Shown one piece after another: positions 35,089 to 43,041 of a DNA stretch of 49,920 bases. This stretch comes from Patescibacteria group bacterium (GTDB lineage Bacteria > Patescibacteriota > Patescibacteriia > 2-12-FULL-60-25), in contig JAGOQX010000006.1 in NCBI GenBank assembly GCA_018063105.1, positions 1-49,920 of the forward strand, written 5' to 3'. The position numbers and the translations under genes were made by a program. Position 1 is the first letter of the stretch. Every line of letters starts with the position of its first letter. Below the pieces are notes generated by a model. The model did no database searches. It saw only the letters and a list, made by a program, of their open reading frames with translations, and was not told where the DNA came from.

Positions 35089-35418
35089 CTATATCGCCAC
35101 TTGGTCATCCGATGGGTCAAGATAAAAACCTTCTTCTAGCAAAATTTCTGAGGAAAAATGGGTCATTTGAGGAGATACGATCGGCTCGACCTCTGGAACA
35201 CTGGAAACGGACGGAATCTGCTCAGAATGCGGCTGTTCAAGAGGTTGTGCTGATTGAGACTCTGACAATGGCTCCAATTCACGCGTCTCCCCCGACCCTG
35301 CCATGGCTTCAAATTGCTCCAACGGCAACACCACCATTGGCTCCCGACCGGCAGGATCCGTGATAATGACCGGAAAACCGAGTTTTCGGGCAGATTCAAA
35401 TATTCGCTGAAGAGACAT
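35089..35418 (-). CDS. Small acidic hypothetical protein
   Basis: This 109-residue protein is unrecognised. The N-terminal 40 residues (RIFESARKLGFPVIITDPAG, then REPMVVLPLEQFEAMAG) resemble the strand-turn-strand of Phd-like antitoxins or other small DNA-binding folds. The rest is acidic and rich in Pro, Ser and Glu. No toxin gene is next to it. It is separated from tuf by that gene's promoter, and its coding style resembles the housekeeping genes rather than the island. Confidence 0.6.
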   Translation of the reverse strand: MSLQRIFESARKLGFPVIITDPAGREPMVVLPLEQFEAMAGSGETRELEPLSESQSAQPLEQPHSEQIPSVSSVPEVEPIVSPQMTHFSSEILLEEGFYLDPSDDQVAI

Positions 35419-35483
35419 AGATTCACCGGTACTGAATCATTTTTGACCCAGACTGACAAGCTTCCAGAGAAGACAAAGCTCGA

Positions 35484-35512
35484 TTGACAAAACCCTAGTG
35501 TTTTGCTACGGT
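35484..35512 (+). promoter_or_regulatory. Promoter of the 35561-38276 operon
   Basis: TTGACA (35484-35489), 17 bases ending TTGC, then TACGGT (35507-35512). The spacer contains ACCCTA (35492-35497). A TCCCT/AGGGA hairpin lies in the short leader, and AAGGAG precedes the ATG. Confidence 0.7.
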
Positions 35513-35560
35513 CGATCGTCCCTTCTTTGAGGGAAGTCCTTCGACAACAAGGAGAACACG

Positions 35561-36760
35561 ATGAAAACATTCGCAGAATGTCTCCAGGACTATCTAGATC
35601 AGCAGGCAGCTCTGTACAACGTTCCATTTGCGGAGAGCGTGCGTGCATTTAGCCTCGATGTGAACGCACCGAACGTCGGTCTCATTCATGGATGGCTCAA
35701 CGGGCACCCCGTAGACGAGCTCCGCCGAACGGCAGCGAGCAAATTGACGGGCTTCAGCTTCGCAGATGCCGACCTCATGGAGGCGAAGACGCTGATCATC
35801 AACGCACTCAAGGATCAGGGATCTGCCCCGCATCCTTCGATCATGACCTGTCTCACGTTCGACAATTTCCGTTCAATGATCACCGTGCTTGTCACCAATT
35901 TCCACGCGGGCGTCATCCGTCGGATGACCGGTATCGATACGAGCCTCGAGGGAAGGTACGTGAAATACGGGGAAACCCCGTCCCTCACTCGACTGGTCGC
36001 GTTGTTCAAGACGATGCACCTCTGTGCAACGGCCTGTGACTACAACACGCAACGACTGCTGAACGATTTTCCCGAGGTGATGCCACTACGCGGAAAGCGC
36101 GTGAGCATTTCGGACGTCGACCTCAGCAAGATCGGGAGCTGGACGCAGAAGCTCATGAAAGAATCCAATCATCTCGATTGCGTTCCGCCGCCGCCAACCC
36201 CACCGCTTCCTGCGGATACGGTCGAGGCGGCAGACCAAGAAGACATCATCGATACGCTTCGCGGCGCTCAACGTCGGTTTCCGGAACGCGACATCGTCAG
36301 CGAGATCTGCAATGTCACGGGCAAGGGGCCCGATGCCGTGCAGCGCTGGCTCAGGCGTCAGCGCGCAATCACGGAAGAAAACCAAGCGCTCATCCGAGAG
36401 AAGATGCCTTGGGCATTCCGCGCTGCGCACGAATCAGACTCCGAGGTTCCTCAGGAGATCATCCGAGGAAGTCGTACGCTCGTTTCGCCTCCTTCAACGA
36501 ACATGCAACTGGATCAGCTTGCCGGTGCAAACCTGGCCGCGCTCAGTGCGACGGCGGGTGCGCTGAAGGTGTTGAACGGACAAGTTGGCGCCTTTACGCA
36601 AGATCAGCGAAACGAGATGACGCGCATCATGATCGGCCTCGCCATCATCGCGAACGTCACTTCCGACATGCTGGAAGACGCGCTAGTTGGTCAGGATATC
36701 GATCCGAGGTCCGCACTAGGCCGATCACTCGCAAGACTCGCAACCCGAGGAGACCGCTAA
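35561..36760 (+). CDS. Hypothetical protein with two HTH-like segments
   Basis: The 399-residue product is not recognised. Two segments resemble Xre-type helix-turn-helix units. One near residues 30-60 has APNVGLIHGWLNGHPVDELR, and one near 225-270 has DIVSEICNVTGKGPDAVQRW. A Pro-rich linker (PPPPTPPLP) joins an N-terminal helical domain to the second. The C-terminal 100 residues are helical. The stop codon is one base before the GHKL ATPase start, so the two form one operon. It may be a DNA-binding regulator or sensor for the ATPase, which is inference. Confidence 0.75.
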   Translation: MKTFAECLQDYLDQQAALYNVPFAESVRAFSLDVNAPNVGLIHGWLNGHPVDELRRTAASKLTGFSFADADLMEAKTLIINALKDQGSAPHPSIMTCLTFDNFRSMITVLVTNFHAGVIRRMTGIDTSLEGRYVKYGETPSLTRLVALFKTMHLCATACDYNTQRLLNDFPEVMPLRGKRVSISDVDLSKIGSWTQKLMKESNHLDCVPPPPTPPLPADTVEAADQEDIIDTLRGAQRRFPERDIVSEICNVTGKGPDAVQRWLRRQRAITEENQALIREKMPWAFRAAHESDSEVPQEIIRGSRTLVSPPSTNMQLDQLAGANLAALSATAGALKVLNGQVGAFTQDQRNEMTRIMIGLAIIANVTSDMLEDALVGQDIDPRSALGRSLARLATRGDR

Positions 36761-36761
36761 T

Positions 36762-38276
36762 ATGGCAACCGCTCAAGAAGTAGCTGCTGGTCAGTTTCAC
36801 TTCCACATGGCACCGGGCTTCGTGGCCCACACGCTTGCCACAGATTTGTATCAGGACATCGGTGCCTGCCTGTACGAAATTCTGCGGAACGGCTGGACCG
36901 CGTGCATGCCAAGTAATCGATGGACACCGAGTTCCGTTCATGTCGAGATCTCTCTCATCGATCATCACCCGCTCTGCCCAACCGGACGATCTCTGGTCAT
37001 CATGGACCACGGCCAGGGGTTTACGGACGAGAACGTCCGTCGCTTCTGCATGATCGGCGAAGAGGACCAAGACGCGCTTTCCGCGCGTCATCATGGCGCT
37101 TCGCAGAAACGAACGGGCAAGTTTGCCGCGTTCGGCATGAATGACGCGATCCAGAAGAATCGCAATTACGCATCCGGTTTCTACATCATGAGCCGGACGT
37201 CGGAGACCGGTCGAGTGATGAAGGTTCACATCACGCCGAGCAACGTCGCTTCCGGGCAAGCGATGCCCGTGTTCATCAATCCCGATGCATCGGAGCTCGG
37301 GGAATACGCTCGGTACAAGGGTAAGTTCACCATCATCCTGATTCAAGAGACCAGCTTCGCGCACCTGGATGAGATCCGTGACGCCCTCCGCTGGTATCTG
37401 CCGCGAAAGCAGGATCGAGCGATCAAGGTTCTTGTTGGAGGCAAGCCACTGATCGCGCCGAAGCTTTCTCCACATTCCAAGTTGGAGGAAGGGATCGAGG
37501 CCTATCTCGAGCGTGTCCATCTGAAGGACAGCAGCGGCGGCGGCATTCGATTGGTCGATGCGGAAACGGGACTCATGTGCGCCAATGCTTCGAAGCTTGG
37601 CAGCTACCTTCCCTATCCACTCGCTCGCCCAGATCTGATCGGTGACATCTTCATTCCTGGCCTCCTTCAGCACCAAACCACGGATCGCTCTGGCATCAAG
37701 CAGAGCCATCTGCGGAGCAAGTTCTGGAGAGAGAAGGTGGATCCTGCACTCCAGCTTCGCATTGCTCCCTTTGCACTGCAGCTCCTTGGTGAAGAGGCGG
37801 TGTTCCAGGCCGAGGATCGATTCGATCGGACGATTCGATCGCTTGCGAAGCTGTTCGAAACGCACTGGGGAGAGCCGGACCAGATCACGAATCATCGACC
37901 GCCTCGACCTCCGGGTCAACGGCCGCCTTCCGGTCCGAGTACGGGGAGTCGCCCGCCCAACGGTGGTCCGAAGGATCCGGATGAGACGGAAGAGGTCAAG
38001 CATCATGGCATCCGCATCAAGGTTGATGGGAAAACCTATCTTCTGCGAAAGATGGTTTCGATGGATCCGTACGAGCGGGCCCAGCTCCAGGAAACGACTC
38101 AGACGATCTTCCTGAACCCCAACTATCGCGCGTTCCCGGGCTCTGACGGAGCGCTGATGGAGCACGAGATGATCAAGGTTCTGGAAGCGATCGCATGCAA
38201 CGCCTTCCGATTCGATACGCGCCAAGCCGGCATCTATGCTTCGAAGCTGATGGCCGGGCTGCGCGAGAAAAAGTAG
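36762..38276 (+). CDS. GHKL-fold (Bergerat) ATPase
   Basis: This 504-residue protein has the three ATP-binding boxes of the GHKL superfamily. The N box is YEILRNGWTAC with Glu39 and Asn43, the G1 box is IMDHGQGF with Asp82, Gly84 and Gly86, and the G2 box is KRTGKFAAFGMNDA. An S5-like middle domain follows (residues 180-330). Then comes a Pro/Gly-rich linker (about 385-415) and a helical C-terminal domain of about 85 residues. No kinase or protease domain is seen, so the layout is closer to MORC/MutL/Hsp90-like ATPases than to sensor kinases. It is paired with the HTH-like gene and followed by a strong terminator. A defence role is possible but unproven. Confidence 0.82.
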   Translation: MATAQEVAAGQFHFHMAPGFVAHTLATDLYQDIGACLYEILRNGWTACMPSNRWTPSSVHVEISLIDHHPLCPTGRSLVIMDHGQGFTDENVRRFCMIGEEDQDALSARHHGASQKRTGKFAAFGMNDAIQKNRNYASGFYIMSRTSETGRVMKVHITPSNVASGQAMPVFINPDASELGEYARYKGKFTIILIQETSFAHLDEIRDALRWYLPRKQDRAIKVLVGGKPLIAPKLSPHSKLEEGIEAYLERVHLKDSSGGGIRLVDAETGLMCANASKLGSYLPYPLARPDLIGDIFIPGLLQHQTTDRSGIKQSHLRSKFWREKVDPALQLRIAPFALQLLGEEAVFQAEDRFDRTIRSLAKLFETHWGEPDQITNHRPPRPPGQRPPSGPSTGSRPPNGGPKDPDETEEVKHHGIRIKVDGKTYLLRKMVSMDPYERAQLQETTQTIFLNPNYRAFPGSDGALMEHEMIKVLEAIACNAFRFDTRQAGIYASKLMAGLREKK

Positions 38277-38293
38277 CCTTCTCTGAAACCAAA

Positions 38294-38330
38294 GAGCCGT
38301 TCGACAAGTGTCGAACGGCTCGTTTTTTTT
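38294..38330. terminator. Bidirectional terminator between convergent genes
   Basis: A 13-bp stem (GAGCCGTTCGACA with its complement, two-base loop) is followed by eight T on the plus strand. On the minus strand it follows the stop codon of the coiled-coil gene and has a TTTGGTTT tail. Confidence 0.88.
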
Positions 38331-39957
38331 AGGAGTTTTTCTGATTTGCTGCCAGAGCCATGAAGTGCTCTGCAAATGCAGCACGGTCTGTTGCGGAAAA
38401 GAGCGAATCGATCGACCAAGGCAATGCCACGTTAGTGATCCGGCGGTACACATGACTTCTCGCACTCGGAGGTCGTCCGTTGTAAACGAAGTACTGTTTC
38501 AGAATCTCCTGCTGCGCCTCTGACCCCTTCCAGGTCGCACCAGAGCAAGACTCAACGAACGTCTCGCGCCAGGCAAGGTCCAATAGAATTCCAGCATTCA
38601 TCGCAGCATCGAGAACGCGCTGCATACCGGACTGCTTACGCTCACCTGGAAGCAGCTCGTACAAACTGACTGCCAAAACGACATTCACCGGTAGCCCAAC
38701 TGCGGTCGCGATCATCCGGAGCTTCATGTCCCTCGTGCCGGACTTTGGCGCGATGGTTCCCGAAGACACAGGAGGAGAGGTTGTATAAGCTACCTGCTGC
38801 ACCTCGATGACCACGGGCCTGGCCGACACCAGATCCGGCACCTCCTGATCCATCCGAATCTCCGGGAGCGTTGCATTGAACTGAATCGCAGAAGGAACAC
38901 CCGCCTGAACCAACAGCCTCGCTTGCTGGTATCGAAGAAGTGACTGCCTCTCCTCTTCCAGCGTTCTGAGTGGCTGCTGCCAGGCTTCGATGAATGCATT
39001 AACCTGCTTGGTCTGCACTCGCAGATTCGCGATTGCCGTCCGAATCTCTTCCGGTGCCTGGGGATTTGCATGAGCCAGCTTCAGCTCACCCTCAAGACGT
39101 CGCATCTCATACTTCATTGACTCAACTCGCTCCCCAGCAGACATGAGATCTTCGGTGACGCCCGCAAGATGCGCGTCACGACGAGCGATCTCTTTCTCGA
39201 GCGTCTCGAGAGCCATCTCAGAGGTTGGGACCACCACCTGCTGCGGCTGAACATGCTGCTTGATGATGTCAACGTACGCGCTGAGCGCCTTCAAGGCAGC
39301 AGGAGCAGATTCCTGGACGATCGAAAGAGCCTGCATATGCTCTGTGCGTTCACGCTCGAGATCCATCTGAGTAGCTTTGCATCGAACCGACAGCTCCTCG
39401 ACCTCTTTGCGCAGCTGACCAACCAACGTCTGACTCCAGCCACCCTCACGCGCATGTCGCTCGATCTGTTGCTGCAACCGAGTGATGGTCTTTGCATCCC
39501 CAGCTGACGCATCCTCCAACTCCTTGCAGCGGACCTCCATAACCGGAAGCGTACCGAGCTGCTCACGCAGGCCCCGAACAGAACGGGTAAGGTCGTCACG
39601 CTGCGTCTGTGCCGCCTCTAGTCCACGATTGGCCGCAGCAAGCTGCTTTTCCAAAGAACGGACATCGTCACTCGGCGCAATGGGTTGAGATAGAGCCGCG
39701 TCAAACGTTGACAAGATATCCGCGAGCTCCAGGGCCGCATTTTGCATGCCAACCGAATTGCCACGCAGACTGTGAAAGCATCCCGTGATCGTCTGCAACA
39801 GCAGCTTCACCGCGTCCTCTTTGAGGTCAGCGTCGATCAAGCCATCAAGACACGAAAGGAAAAAACTGAGATTCTGATCGATTTCCTCGGGACGAATCCC
39901 ACGAACAACGCTATCCGTCGTCGAAGATGCTGGTCGTGAAGCATCTTTCCCTGCCAT
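38329..39957 (-). CDS. Long coiled-coil protein
   Basis: This 542-residue protein has a helical N-terminal domain (about residues 25-95, with FFLSCLDGLIDADLKEDAVK). A coiled coil of roughly 250 residues follows, rich in Leu, Glu, Gln and Arg heptads (VRSLEKQLAAANRGLEAAQT; MKYEMRRLEGELKLAHA). A globular C-terminal domain of about 130 residues ends it (LRMIATAVGLPVNVVLAVSL). No ATPase motif is present, so it is not an SMC. The ATG at 39957 has a GAGGAGG site five bases upstream. It is transcribed divergently from the 40119 gene through overlapping promoter elements. Function unknown; a structural partner for the island ATPase is a guess. Confidence 0.75.
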   Translation of the reverse strand: MAGKDASRPASSTTDSVVRGIRPEEIDQNLSFFLSCLDGLIDADLKEDAVKLLLQTITGCFHSLRGNSVGMQNAALELADILSTFDAALSQPIAPSDDVRSLEKQLAAANRGLEAAQTQRDDLTRSVRGLREQLGTLPVMEVRCKELEDASAGDAKTITRLQQQIERHAREGGWSQTLVGQLRKEVEELSVRCKATQMDLERERTEHMQALSIVQESAPAALKALSAYVDIIKQHVQPQQVVVPTSEMALETLEKEIARRDAHLAGVTEDLMSAGERVESMKYEMRRLEGELKLAHANPQAPEEIRTAIANLRVQTKQVNAFIEAWQQPLRTLEEERQSLLRYQQARLLVQAGVPSAIQFNATLPEIRMDQEVPDLVSARPVVIEVQQVAYTTSPPVSSGTIAPKSGTRDMKLRMIATAVGLPVNVVLAVSLYELLPGERKQSGMQRVLDAAMNAGILLDLAWRETFVESCSGATWKGSEAQQEILKQYFVYNGRPPSARSHVYRRITNVALPWSIDSLFSATDRAAFAEHFMALAANQKNS

Positions 39958-40003
39958 AATCGCCTCCTCACCTTCATTCCCAGACACCTGCCCAGGACCG
40001 CCA

Positions 40004-40067
40004 ATCACACCCTATTTTACAGGTTTTGTCAATGCGTATTGACTTGTAGCCCTATTTTTGCTAGGGT
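40004..40067. promoter_or_regulatory. Back-to-back divergent promoters in the island
   Basis: GTCAAT-GCGT-ATTGAC (40028-40043) forms two facing -35 boxes only four bases apart. To the right, TTGACT, 17 bases ending TTGC, then TAGGGT (40062-40067) serves the 40119 gene. To the left, TTGACA, 17 bases, then TGTGAT (40004-40009) serves the coiled-coil gene, with TAGGGT overlapping at 40009-40014. Confidence 0.65.
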
Positions 40068-40118
40068 TTCATGTCCTCTTACTTCAGGGGCGAACCTTCA
40101 CAATAAAGGAAGGGTCAG

Positions 40119-41792
40119 ATGGATAAGCCGTCAAAGGCACACATACTGCGAATTCTCGCCCATCGCGTAGATCAAACCGTTCCGCTCCAGAGCGCCAACA
40201 TTGCGGTTCTCGGCGGTGCGGGACTGGAAGTCGACATTCTCCGAGGAGCTGGTGTTCCGGATTCTCAACTCTGGATCGTCGAGCGCAAACCGAAATTGGC
40301 AGGACAGTTGATGCGACGATATCCGGAGGTACACCTGGTGCAGGGAAGCCTTCGGACACTCCCCCGTCTTCTTCGCGGAAGCGTTGGCAAAGACGCTGGA
40401 ATCGATGCGTTTCATTGGGACCTCTGTGGAACCATTGAGCCAGAGATCGCGGAGCTGACGAGCGTACTCCCTCTGCTCGCAAACGGCACGGGAAAGCATC
40501 TCTTCATCACCCTGGCAGATCAACGACGCAATCGATCGCTCGATGAAGAAAAGCTGACTCGCCGAATCTGCGGGAACATTTTTGGGGATAGTTGGCTAGG
40601 TCTTTGGACGCATCTGCTCAAGGTCCACAACCTCGAACAGCACCCCGAACATGTCACGAGCGCTCTTCCGGAGAACAGCGCCCTTCGTGAAGCGGGAAGC
40701 ATGCTCCATCTTCTGCTCGCACTTTCGTCACTCCAAACGAAACGCGGCCGATACATGAGCCGCACTCGTAGCTTTCCGCTGTCGCAATTTCTCCGATTTC
40801 GCGAAACGGAATGCCGAGAACGATCGCTGCTGAAACAAGCAAAGGCCGGAACAACGGTTCTCGTTCCTGAATCGCTGGAGCGATTCGTGTACTGGTCCGA
40901 TGATTCCAATTTCCGAATGCGAACGTACGTCATTCGACTCAAGCTCTTGAATGAGCCGATTCCGCTCCTCACTGCCGCAAAGCAGTTCGCGCGCCTCATC
41001 AGACGCGCACCATACAGTGCGGTGGATCCGAACCAGATCATCCCGATTTGGCCACGAACTGCTGCACCGATCATGCCAACCACACAACACCTCACGGAGG
41101 AACTAACCATGACAACGGACCTCGTCAAGGATATCCCGACTCCCGAGCTGCTGGCACGACTCGATCCGGTGAAGCGCATGTGCGCGATCCTGAATCCGGC
41201 GCTTCCCGAGTACATCGACGAGCTCGGGCGACGGGCCACGATGACGGACACGGGGAACGACACGCAGAAGACCCTCATCGCCGTGCTCGAGCACGTGCAG
41301 CACGCCCTCGATGCTGGGCTCAAGAACGGCACTGCAACCGAGGCTCTGCCTGCCGCAACGGAGACGGAGACGGCGGATCCCGTTCCTCCGAGTAGTGCCG
41401 GTACGAGCAGGCGCTCTGCGAGGAGCCGACCTCAGCGGCTCGGAGCAGACACGGTGATCGAGATTCAGCTCAAGATGCTCGAAGCCTGGAACAAGGGCGA
41501 TCCTGCATCCGCGAACGCGCTCGAGAAGTGTAAGGAGCAGATCGCACGCGATCTGGGCATTTCCCGGCAAAAGAACCGTTACCGTCGCATCGGTGCCTGC
41601 TTCGCCAGGACGCAAGGAGCGTTTCGCGGTGACTTCGTCGCTCGCGTGCTTCTCAGCGTGGAACCCTCTCAGCACAAGAACCAGCTGAAGAAGCTGGCCA
41701 AGCTGTACCCGGATACGACTCCGGCACTGCTTCAGACCGAAGTCGAAGCCAGCACGCCCTGGAAGAAGCACCTCGCCCAGTCCCAGCCCTGA
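40119..41792 (+). CDS. Two-part hypothetical protein, Rossmann-like N-terminus
   Basis: The 557-residue frame has two dissimilar halves. Residues 1-330 resemble a class I methyltransferase or other Rossmann fold: NIAVLGGAGLEVDILRGAGV, then LWIVERKPKLAGQLM with an acidic strand end, VHLVQGSL, and IDAFHWDLCG at the motif 4 place. Residues 331-557 begin with a Met that has GGAGG eight bases before it, at 41096-41100. They contain a disordered Ser/Arg/Pro linker and a helical basic C-terminus (NQLKKLAKLYPDT). Third-position G/C appears higher in the second half. It may be a fusion, or make a second shorter product from 41109. No catalytic function is claimed. Confidence 0.72.
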   Translation: MDKPSKAHILRILAHRVDQTVPLQSANIAVLGGAGLEVDILRGAGVPDSQLWIVERKPKLAGQLMRRYPEVHLVQGSLRTLPRLLRGSVGKDAGIDAFHWDLCGTIEPEIAELTSVLPLLANGTGKHLFITLADQRRNRSLDEEKLTRRICGNIFGDSWLGLWTHLLKVHNLEQHPEHVTSALPENSALREAGSMLHLLLALSSLQTKRGRYMSRTRSFPLSQFLRFRETECRERSLLKQAKAGTTVLVPESLERFVYWSDDSNFRMRTYVIRLKLLNEPIPLLTAAKQFARLIRRAPYSAVDPNQIIPIWPRTAAPIMPTTQHLTEELTMTTDLVKDIPTPELLARLDPVKRMCAILNPALPEYIDELGRRATMTDTGNDTQKTLIAVLEHVQHALDAGLKNGTATEALPAATETETADPVPPSSAGTSRRSARSRPQRLGADTVIEIQLKMLEAWNKGDPASANALEKCKEQIARDLGISRQKNRYRRIGACFARTQGAFRGDFVARVLLSVEPSQHKNQLKKLAKLYPDTTPALLQTEVEASTPWKKHLAQSQP

Positions 41793-41815
41793 TCAGAATA
41801 TGTAGCGTATGACTC

Positions 41816-41848
41816 GAGCCCAAACCAACCACGGTTTGGGCTCTTTCT
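41816..41848 (+). terminator. Intrinsic terminator
   Basis: An 11-bp stem GAGCCCAAACC/GGTTTGGGCTC with a six-base loop and TTTCT tail follows the 40119 gene. Confidence 0.85.
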
Positions 41849-41863
41849 ATATCCAACAACTCA

Positions 41864-41892
41864 TTGACATATACCCTATCTATTGCTTAACT
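41864..41892 (+). promoter_or_regulatory. Promoter of ADP-ribosylglycohydrolase gene
   Basis: TTGACA (41864-41869), 17 bases ending TTGC, then TTAACT (41887-41892). The spacer contains ACCCTA (41873-41878). The leader would be about 25 bases. Confidence 0.65.
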
Positions 41893-41923
41893 TTTCGGAC
41901 ATCTCGTGAGAAAGGCCCGTCCA

Positions 41924-42886
41924 ATGCAGATGCGCTTTCCCAACCCGAACCTTCTAGCCTACATCGCCATGGCTGACGCGTATTGCGCGGCCGTCGAGTA
42001 CGTGAAGCTACCACAGCACGTTGCCCTGGTTCAGCAAGCACTTCGTTTCGAGAAGTACCTGCAACATCCGACGCATGGACTAGCTCCGGGTCAGTACACA
42101 GATGACGGCGAGATGAACTGTGCGAACGCCCAAGCACTTCTGAACTTTGGCGAACGACCCACAGCACGAAATTTTGCCGACGAATATGTCAGGGAGTTCA
42201 AATCCGGTGGAGAACGACGGGGCTACGCCCAAGGGTTCTACGCCGTCTTGCAACAAGTACGCAACGGAGAAGAACTTCTCCGCATGACCAAATCTCATGG
42301 CAACGCCTCAACCAAGAACGGCGCCTGTATGCGAGCACCCGTTCTCGGCGTTCTTCCCACGGTCCGTGCGGTCCTAGATGCGGCGACCACGCAGGCGCGC
42401 ATCACGCACGATTCATCAGTAGGTCGATTCAGCGCTCGAGCCGTCGCGCTCATGGCACATTACGCCATGTATCACCACGGCCCGCTCGAGCAGGCAGGCG
42501 ATTTCTGCGTCGACAATCTGCCAGATGAAGACCTTCACTTCATGAGCATCCTCTTCGAGCCGTGGGAAGGTCCGGTGAAATCCGACCCGTCACGTGGACT
42601 CTCTGTCGGTGTTGCAACCGTTCACGCTGCGCATCACATCATCGAAACCGAAATGCTCAAACCAGTCCCCTCGCTCATGGGAATGCTCGAGCAGGTCATT
42701 CAACTGGGTGGTGACACGGACACGGTCGCAGCAGTCGTATGGGGAATTGCGTCAAGCCGGTTCCAAGACGAAACACTTCCCGAGTTTCTCTTTCAAGATC
42801 TCGAAGGCGGAAAACAAGAAACCGGCCTCCCCTATTTACAGCACCTCGGTACGACGCTCATGCAAACGTTCAACAAGCTCTCCTAG
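41924..42886 (+). CDS. ADP-ribosylglycohydrolase family protein
   Basis: This 320-residue protein belongs to the ARH/DraG family, which removes ADP-ribose from proteins or nucleic acids using two magnesium ions. The metal motifs are clear: GQYTDDGEM (Thr59, Asp60, Asp61) and GGDTDTVAAVVWGI near the C-terminus, with NGACMRAPVLG between. The first motif reads ADAYCAAVEY where most members have GDALGAPVEF. The ATG at 41924 has AGAAAGG upstream; a GTG at 41906 is an alternative. It has its own promoter and terminator. No ADP-ribosyltransferase is recognised next to it, so its target is unknown. Confidence 0.9.
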   Translation: MQMRFPNPNLLAYIAMADAYCAAVEYVKLPQHVALVQQALRFEKYLQHPTHGLAPGQYTDDGEMNCANAQALLNFGERPTARNFADEYVREFKSGGERRGYAQGFYAVLQQVRNGEELLRMTKSHGNASTKNGACMRAPVLGVLPTVRAVLDAATTQARITHDSSVGRFSARAVALMAHYAMYHHGPLEQAGDFCVDNLPDEDLHFMSILFEPWEGPVKSDPSRGLSVGVATVHAAHHIIETEMLKPVPSLMGMLEQVIQLGGDTDTVAAVVWGIASSRFQDETLPEFLFQDLEGGKQETGLPYLQHLGTTLMQTFNKLS

Positions 42887-42891
42887 CGCAA

Positions 42892-42924
42892 AGCCCTGGT
42901 CACTCGACCAGGGCTGCTTATTTT
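42892..42924 (+). terminator. Intrinsic terminator
   Basis: A 10-bp stem AGCCCTGGTC/GACCAGGGCT with a four-base loop and a TTATTTT tail ends the ADP-ribosylglycohydrolase transcript. Confidence 0.85.
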
Positions 42925-42942
42925 GAATTGATAAAAACAAAC

Positions 42943-43030
42943 AAAAAAGACGGGTGACACGGCGAACACTTTTTACAACGCCTGAAAGCGTTGAAAAAAG
43001 TGCGAACCGTGGCAGGCCACGTCTTTTTTC
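42943..43030. terminator. Large composite terminator after fusA
   Basis: A long imperfect stem pairs the region around 42949-42975 with 42993-43023. It encloses an inner hairpin CAACGC/GCGTTG, with A/T runs on both outer sides. It should stop the fusA transcript on the minus strand and back up the plus-strand terminator. Confidence 0.7.
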
Positions 43031-43041
43031 TCCCTTTGATT

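Follow-up and report, generated by a model that had tools for sequence, protein, structure and literature searches.

A sporadic four-gene module of Patescibacteria built around a GHKL ATPase, with a possible role in the control of mobile DNA

Introduction

Proteins that join a GHKL ATPase domain to an S5-type domain, among them MutL, topoisomerases, Hsp90 and the MORC proteins, work as dimeric clamps that ATP closes around DNA or around a partner (PMC2292703). In prokaryotes, genes for such proteins of the MORC and paraMORC type are found in mobile modules that also encode methylases (PMC2292703). For one bacterial representative, the GHKL-Shedu or paraMORC3 protein VcSduA, which occurred in about 1.2% of the genomes of that study, an anti-phage activity has been demonstrated experimentally (PMC12137116). 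Patescibacteria, according to two published accounts, have streamlined genomes in which CRISPR is rare and which reportedly hold many undescribed defence genes (PMC6509639, PMC12259885).

Here we analyse a stretch of 49,920 nucleotides (hereafter called the window) from contig JAGOQX010000006.1 of a Patescibacteria group bacterium (assembly GCA_018063105.1), whose genome of 0.96 Mb is 90% complete. An original prediction, made from this stretch by itself, had singled out a pair of genes for an HTH-like protein (here A) and a GHKL ATPase (B) as a candidate defence or silencing module. Our findings show that Patescibacteria sporadically carry a four-gene module, A-B-C-D, which is larger than the pair noted first and includes a gene for a coiled-coil protein (C) and one for a protein with a predicted methyltransferase fold (D). 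The features of the window are collected in Table 1. A literature search found no published description of the module.

Table 1. Features of the A-B-C-D locus and its surroundings, in window positions
Feature	Positions	Strand	Remarks
Small conserved gene	35089-35418	-	weakly Phd/YefM-like, E 0.003; beside tuf in most family members
Insert with A-D and the ADP-ribosylglycohydrolase gene	35419-43041		horizontally acquired-looking
Gene A, HTH-type protein, 399 aa	35561-36760	+	5' of B in 11/11 loci
Gene B, predicted GHKL ATPase with S5-type middle domain and small C-terminal alpha/beta domain, 504 aa	36762-38276	+	
B residues 15-345, predicted GHKL and S5/transducer part	36804-37796	+	fold matches over residues 1-349
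B N box	36876-36890	+	
B residues 415-504, C-terminal domain	38004-38273	+	also on its own in contig 47 of G031
Strong hairpin with T tail between convergent B and C	38294-38321		likely terminator
Gene C, coiled-coil protein	38329-40008	-	homologues adjoin B in other loci
Gene D, predicted class-I SAM-methyltransferase-fold N-terminal domain (about 1-300) and helical C-terminal region	40119-41792	+	
ADP-ribosylglycohydrolase gene	41906-42886	+	PF03747, E 4e-29

Results

Genes A and B are separated by a single base in the window, just as had been predicted, and each is preceded by an AGGAG-type ribosome site visible in the sequence. In most homologous pairs the two reading frames share 4 nt (ATGA), an overlap that speaks for translational coupling. 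The single promoter that had been proposed for the pair was not recovered: a scan with the sigma-70 consensus found no promoter-like site on the plus strand upstream of it, so that the operon call rests on spacing and conserved coupling. Eleven loci were compared, the window included, and at every one of these Patescibacteria loci (11/11) gene A lies immediately 5' of B. The order is thus kept in 10 other genomes whose copies are about 28-49% identical (one outlier excluded), and such conservation among diverged relatives places the pairing far above chance. Failure of the pair to recur elsewhere had been named beforehand as a sign against the proposal, as had a match between the ATPase and a housekeeping family; the pair was present at all 11 loci, and B matched none of the housekeeping families.

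How widely is the unit spread? Within a partial sampling of genomes, 7 of the 381 sampled from the class and 4 of the 380 from the phylum carried B, each count taking in the genome of the window itself, and one further locus, L021, emerged from a scan of genome contigs with the B alignment; the B sequence alone, used as the query of the same contigs, gave no match. A and D were found only in genomes that carry B (in samples of 144-192 genomes from the class and of 287 from the phylum), and C occurred without B nowhere in 192 genomes except for one weak coiled-coil match in G168. Such near-confinement of A, C and D to B carriers is what a dedicated multi-gene system would show. The apparent restriction of the module to Patescibacteria rests on pattern-based scans of genome contigs, phages, plasmids and viral contigs, which have limited sensitivity; the last three collections yielded no module homologues. 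The copies are strongly diverged: B proteins are 27-40% identical to that of the window, even within its family, and 18% in the outlier L024; EF-Tu, the product of tuf, is 81-89% identical within the same family. In a poorly resolved tree of B, the three copies from that family did not group together.

Protein B is predicted to be a GHKL-S5 ATPase with intact nucleotide-binding motifs. It carries an N box (EILRN, residue 39), a G1 box (DHGQG, from residue 82), a G2 box (QKRTGKFA, residue 115) and a GT motif (GKFT, residue 187), and Pfam recognised no kinase domain, all in keeping with the original prediction of complete N, G1 and G2 boxes in a protein that is not a kinase. In the alignment E-N, DxGxG, the G2 glycine and the GxF motif are kept in 11/11 members, and motif searches by regular expression agree for 10-11 of the 11. 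Mean pairwise identity over the GHKL and S5/transducer part is 38% among ten members. An AlphaFold2 model of B (mean pLDDT 74) matches MORC4 over residues 8-345 with a Z score of 18.1 (rmsd 4.1, 276 residues aligned), tied with MORC3 (Z 18.0) and the yeast Hsp90 protein Hsc82 (Z 17.9); across these three alignments rmsd is 4.1-4.4 over 273-279 residues. The top Foldseek match was TRAP1 (E 6e-10), which was also found by the family profile in the PDB (E 4.4e-5), and the profile matched E. coli HtpG (E 6e-5 over 111 columns, ending at HtpG residue 137). The published MORC motif of the S5 domain, GhXhhpXXRhl, was found by regular expression in 0/11 members; B is therefore not a MORC protein in the sense of Iyer et al. 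(2008), and the comparison with the MORC/paraMORC type made in the original prediction does not hold as far as MORC membership is concerned. Nor did B reveal a C-terminal domain of the Hsp90 type, fold matches stopping near residue 349. With neither the MORC motif nor a recognisable Hsp90 C terminus, B is best described as a separate GHKL-S5 family with a C-terminal domain of its own, in a position like that of paraMORC (PMC2292703).

On contig 47 of G031, a region at L025:6896-9895 encodes a weak relative of this C-terminal domain alone (E 5e-4) in the first of two tandem small reading frames, which are followed by a gene for an SF2 helicase; the latter has five INT_rpt repeats and matches models of type IV methyl-directed restriction enzymes.

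Among the described systems, Hsp90, HtpG and TRAP1 share with B the predicted fold of the GHKL and middle domains (Z 16-18) and are also found by sequence. A nearly invariant arginine of B, in the motif Q-N/D-T-S/A-R, resembles by eye the catalytic arginine of the Hsp90 middle domain. In contrast to the roughly 600-residue Hsp90 architecture, B has 504 residues, and its C-terminal domain of about 90 residues is apparently unrelated to the Hsp90 dimerisation domain; moreover, B is operonic with an HTH gene and is accessory rather than widespread. SMCHD1, whose ATPase matches the model of B with a Z score of 15.6, likewise combines a GHKL domain with a coiled coil, although in the module the coiled coil belongs to a protein of its own, in which no hinge domain was recognised, whereas SMCHD1 has an SMC-type hinge. 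The paraMORC and prokaryotic MORC proteins of mobile restriction-modification-like operons (Iyer, Abhiman and Aravind, 2008, PMC2292703) have in common with B the GHKL and S5-type domains, ATP motifs that are intact and a C-terminal extension peculiar to the family, and their genes are similarly patchy, mobile and accompanied by a gene with a methyltransferase fold. They differ in the GhXhhpXXRhl motif and in their partners, which here are an HTH protein and a coiled-coil protein, no SF2 helicase or nuclease having been recognised in the unit. VcSduA is a bacterial GHKL ATPase clamp, as B would be, but is fused to a PD-(D/E)xK nuclease, of which none was recognised in B (PMC12137116). The module is an undescribed variation on the paraMORC-type theme and, by analogy, resembles mobile anti-phage or DNA-control systems.

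The HTH character ascribed to A finds support in the family and is marginal for the window protein taken singly. The latter matches HTH_29 weakly (E 0.02, 15.4 bits); a homologue (L009) scores 29.9 bits against HTH_31, above the curated cut-off of 27, and the best PDB match of the family profile is P22 Cro (E 0.0034). A comprises a variable N-terminal part with one to several predicted HTHs and a more widely shared helical C-terminal region. The N-terminal part is the least conserved of the module (mean pairwise identity 17%, in a region that aligns poorly, versus 38% for the ATPase part of B), as would be expected of a recognition subunit. Conceivably, the combination of an HTH protein, a MORC-like clamp and a coiled-coil protein might instead be an accessory complex of the host that controls transcription or compacts DNA and has nothing to do with mobile DNA, all the more so as eukaryotic MORC-type proteins have been tied to chromatin superstructure (PMC2292703). 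We consider this improbable: a presence in only 1-2% of genomes, scattered over families, is unusual for housekeeping regulation, and the DNA-binding part of A is poorly conserved between copies. Next to A at one locus (L029:10892-11464) lies a gene that is restriction-nuclease-like by eye and has no Pfam or PADLOC match.

The prediction that neighbouring coiled-coil and Rossmann genes belong to the system was borne out. Gene C adjoins B in the ten non-outlier loci, mostly in convergent orientation; in L023, where its relative order and orientation are rearranged, the two genes are co-directional. Sequence similarity of C links the window with L007, L008, L009, L023, L029, L030 and L031, and weakly with L010; in L024, the most divergent locus, the candidate for C was identified by position only. 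At L021 (L021:1129-2712) B is split into two reading frames and the coiled-coil gene is shortened to 242 aa, which suggests that this copy is decayed or an assembly error. SMC, JetC and LmuB were rejected as identities for C, the matches being of a generic coiled-coil kind.

Gene D is present in nine of the eleven genomes: in the window, L007, L009, L021, L023, L029 and L031, and in G453 and G031, where its place at the end of a contig would fit a split locus. In L007 it is hidden under a spurious antisense reading frame and was recovered by tblastn and HMM searches. The two genomes from which it is absent, G050 and G296, hold the two most divergent copies of the module. Modelling indicates that the N-terminal part of D is a class-I methyltransferase fold; the AlphaFold2 model, built on three sequences and confident only in its core, has a pLDDT of 57 overall and of about 75-90 over residues 1-100. 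Its best structural match is the tRNA methyltransferase Trm1 (Z 14.8 over 223 residues), in company with COMT, RsmD and PmtA (the last with a Foldseek E value of 2.8e-5) and with many families at tied Z scores. A GGxGxE loop occurs in all six aligned D sequences. The DNA-methylase motifs [DNS]PP[YFW] and PC[QN] are absent from 6/6, which carry H[LW]D[LIF]C in place of these signatures.

Might D act on RNA rather than DNA? The likeness to Trm1, together with the proximity of several copies to translation genes (fusA/tuf, tig, thrS, ileS, infB and pnp/rpsO), invites a scenario in which D methylates RNA, B works as a chaperone in the manner of Hsp90, and translation is regulated or protected by the module, for instance when phages attack. 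We hold such a role to be unlikely, given that the methyltransferase fold is common to many families with tied Z scores, that two divergent copies lack D altogether, that the HTH evidence in A points to DNA, and that dense housekeeping neighbourhoods are to be expected anyway in genomes of 1 Mb.

In the window, the module occupies most of a 7.6-kb insert between fusA and a small gene 5' of tuf. The GC content of the insert is 0.563, compared with 0.490 for the rest of the window and with at most 0.512 in any 7.6-kb stretch to the left of the insert. In several relatives fusA, the small gene and tuf are near neighbours; in others the gap holds 1.6-3.8 kb of other genes. The differing cargo marks the gap as an insertion hotspot. 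Cargo seen in relatives (L064-L072, L076) comprises lipoprotein-like genes, an ABC transporter with a peptidase-like gene, and secretion- or pilus-like genes. The ADP-ribosylglycohydrolase gene, which the original prediction had included in the system, is one more such item: a homologue with 46% identity occupies the same spot in G012 (L064:7465-8382) without A-D, which identifies the gene as independent hotspot cargo, and it is missing from all ten other module loci. We therefore rejected it as a part of the module.

An insert-like site, an anomalous GC content and patchy, highly diverged copies would also fit genes that serve a mobile element rather than its host, in segregation, choice of integration site or transfer, and an HTH protein with a coiled coil may bring partition-type proteins to mind. 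That the module is selfish in this way seems to us about as unlikely as an RNA-directed role, if not slightly more so. No integrase, transposase or relaxase was recognised in the module, searches for terminal repeats around the insert returned only chance-like short repeats, and scans of phage, plasmid and viral collections, limited in sensitivity, found no copy of it.

The proposal of a multi-part defence or silencing system held in its first half, the genes being a multi-gene unit; direct links to defence were not found. Against PADLOC-DB 2.0.0, A and D gave no matches, B only TmtA (E 0.06) and C only coiled-coil noise; their homologues from other loci likewise gave no matches at E 0.01. Searches of A-D turned up no recognisable helicase, nuclease, NADase or toxin domain, and those of the few neighbours scanned no SF2 helicase or nuclease, although divergent nucleases could escape them. 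Neighbour genes, called by simple ORF selection, were mostly housekeeping, with no known defence gene beside the module. The copies at L009, L010, L021, L024, L030 and L031 adjoin core genes of translation or replication, drawn from pnp/rpsO, tig, thrS, ileS, recF/dnaN/dnaA and infB. With no such domain recognised in the module and no known defence gene alongside, a role in defence is something that we infer.

Discussion

What might such a unit do? We favour the view, to which we assign a probability of roughly 45%, that A-D form a dedicated Patescibacterial complex which spreads horizontally and whose target is DNA, most plausibly mobile DNA that enters the cell. The role against mobile elements is its least certain step, and the odds of a defence or silencing function lie somewhat under one half. 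The presence of GHKL-S5 genes in mobile methylase modules and the anti-phage activity of VcSduA favour such a role; the lack of a recognised nuclease or toxin and of neighbouring defence genes weighs against certainty.

We envision a scenario whereby A would serve as the DNA-recognition subunit that chooses the target, as the variability of its N-terminal half, the highest in the system, suggests. Binding of ATP might then close a dimer of B around DNA or a partner, as in MORC, MutL and Hsp90, and C could act as an elongated scaffold that bridges B to A or to D. D, in turn, may write or read a methyl mark that tells self from non-self; the absence of standard DNA-methylase motifs, and the RNA methyltransferase as its best structural match, count against this view. 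Given that neither a nuclease nor a toxin domain was recognised, the target DNA would conceivably be looped, compacted or blocked.

A more specific form of this complex acting on DNA, which we think rather improbable, would be nuclease-free immunity or silencing, in which the HTH protein targets foreign DNA, the ATP-driven clamp and the scaffold compact or silence it, and a non-canonical methyltransferase marks self. If it were true, the module would be the equivalent, in bacteria with ultra-small genomes, of silencing of the MORC/SMCHD1 type, and control of foreign DNA without a nuclease would offer a simple prokaryotic model for silencing by MORC-type clamps. In any case, a four-gene unit that spreads despite the pressure to shrink these genomes must pay its way, and a module of the kind proposed here would, if the proposal is true, offer a way into transformation and the control of phages in Patescibacteria.
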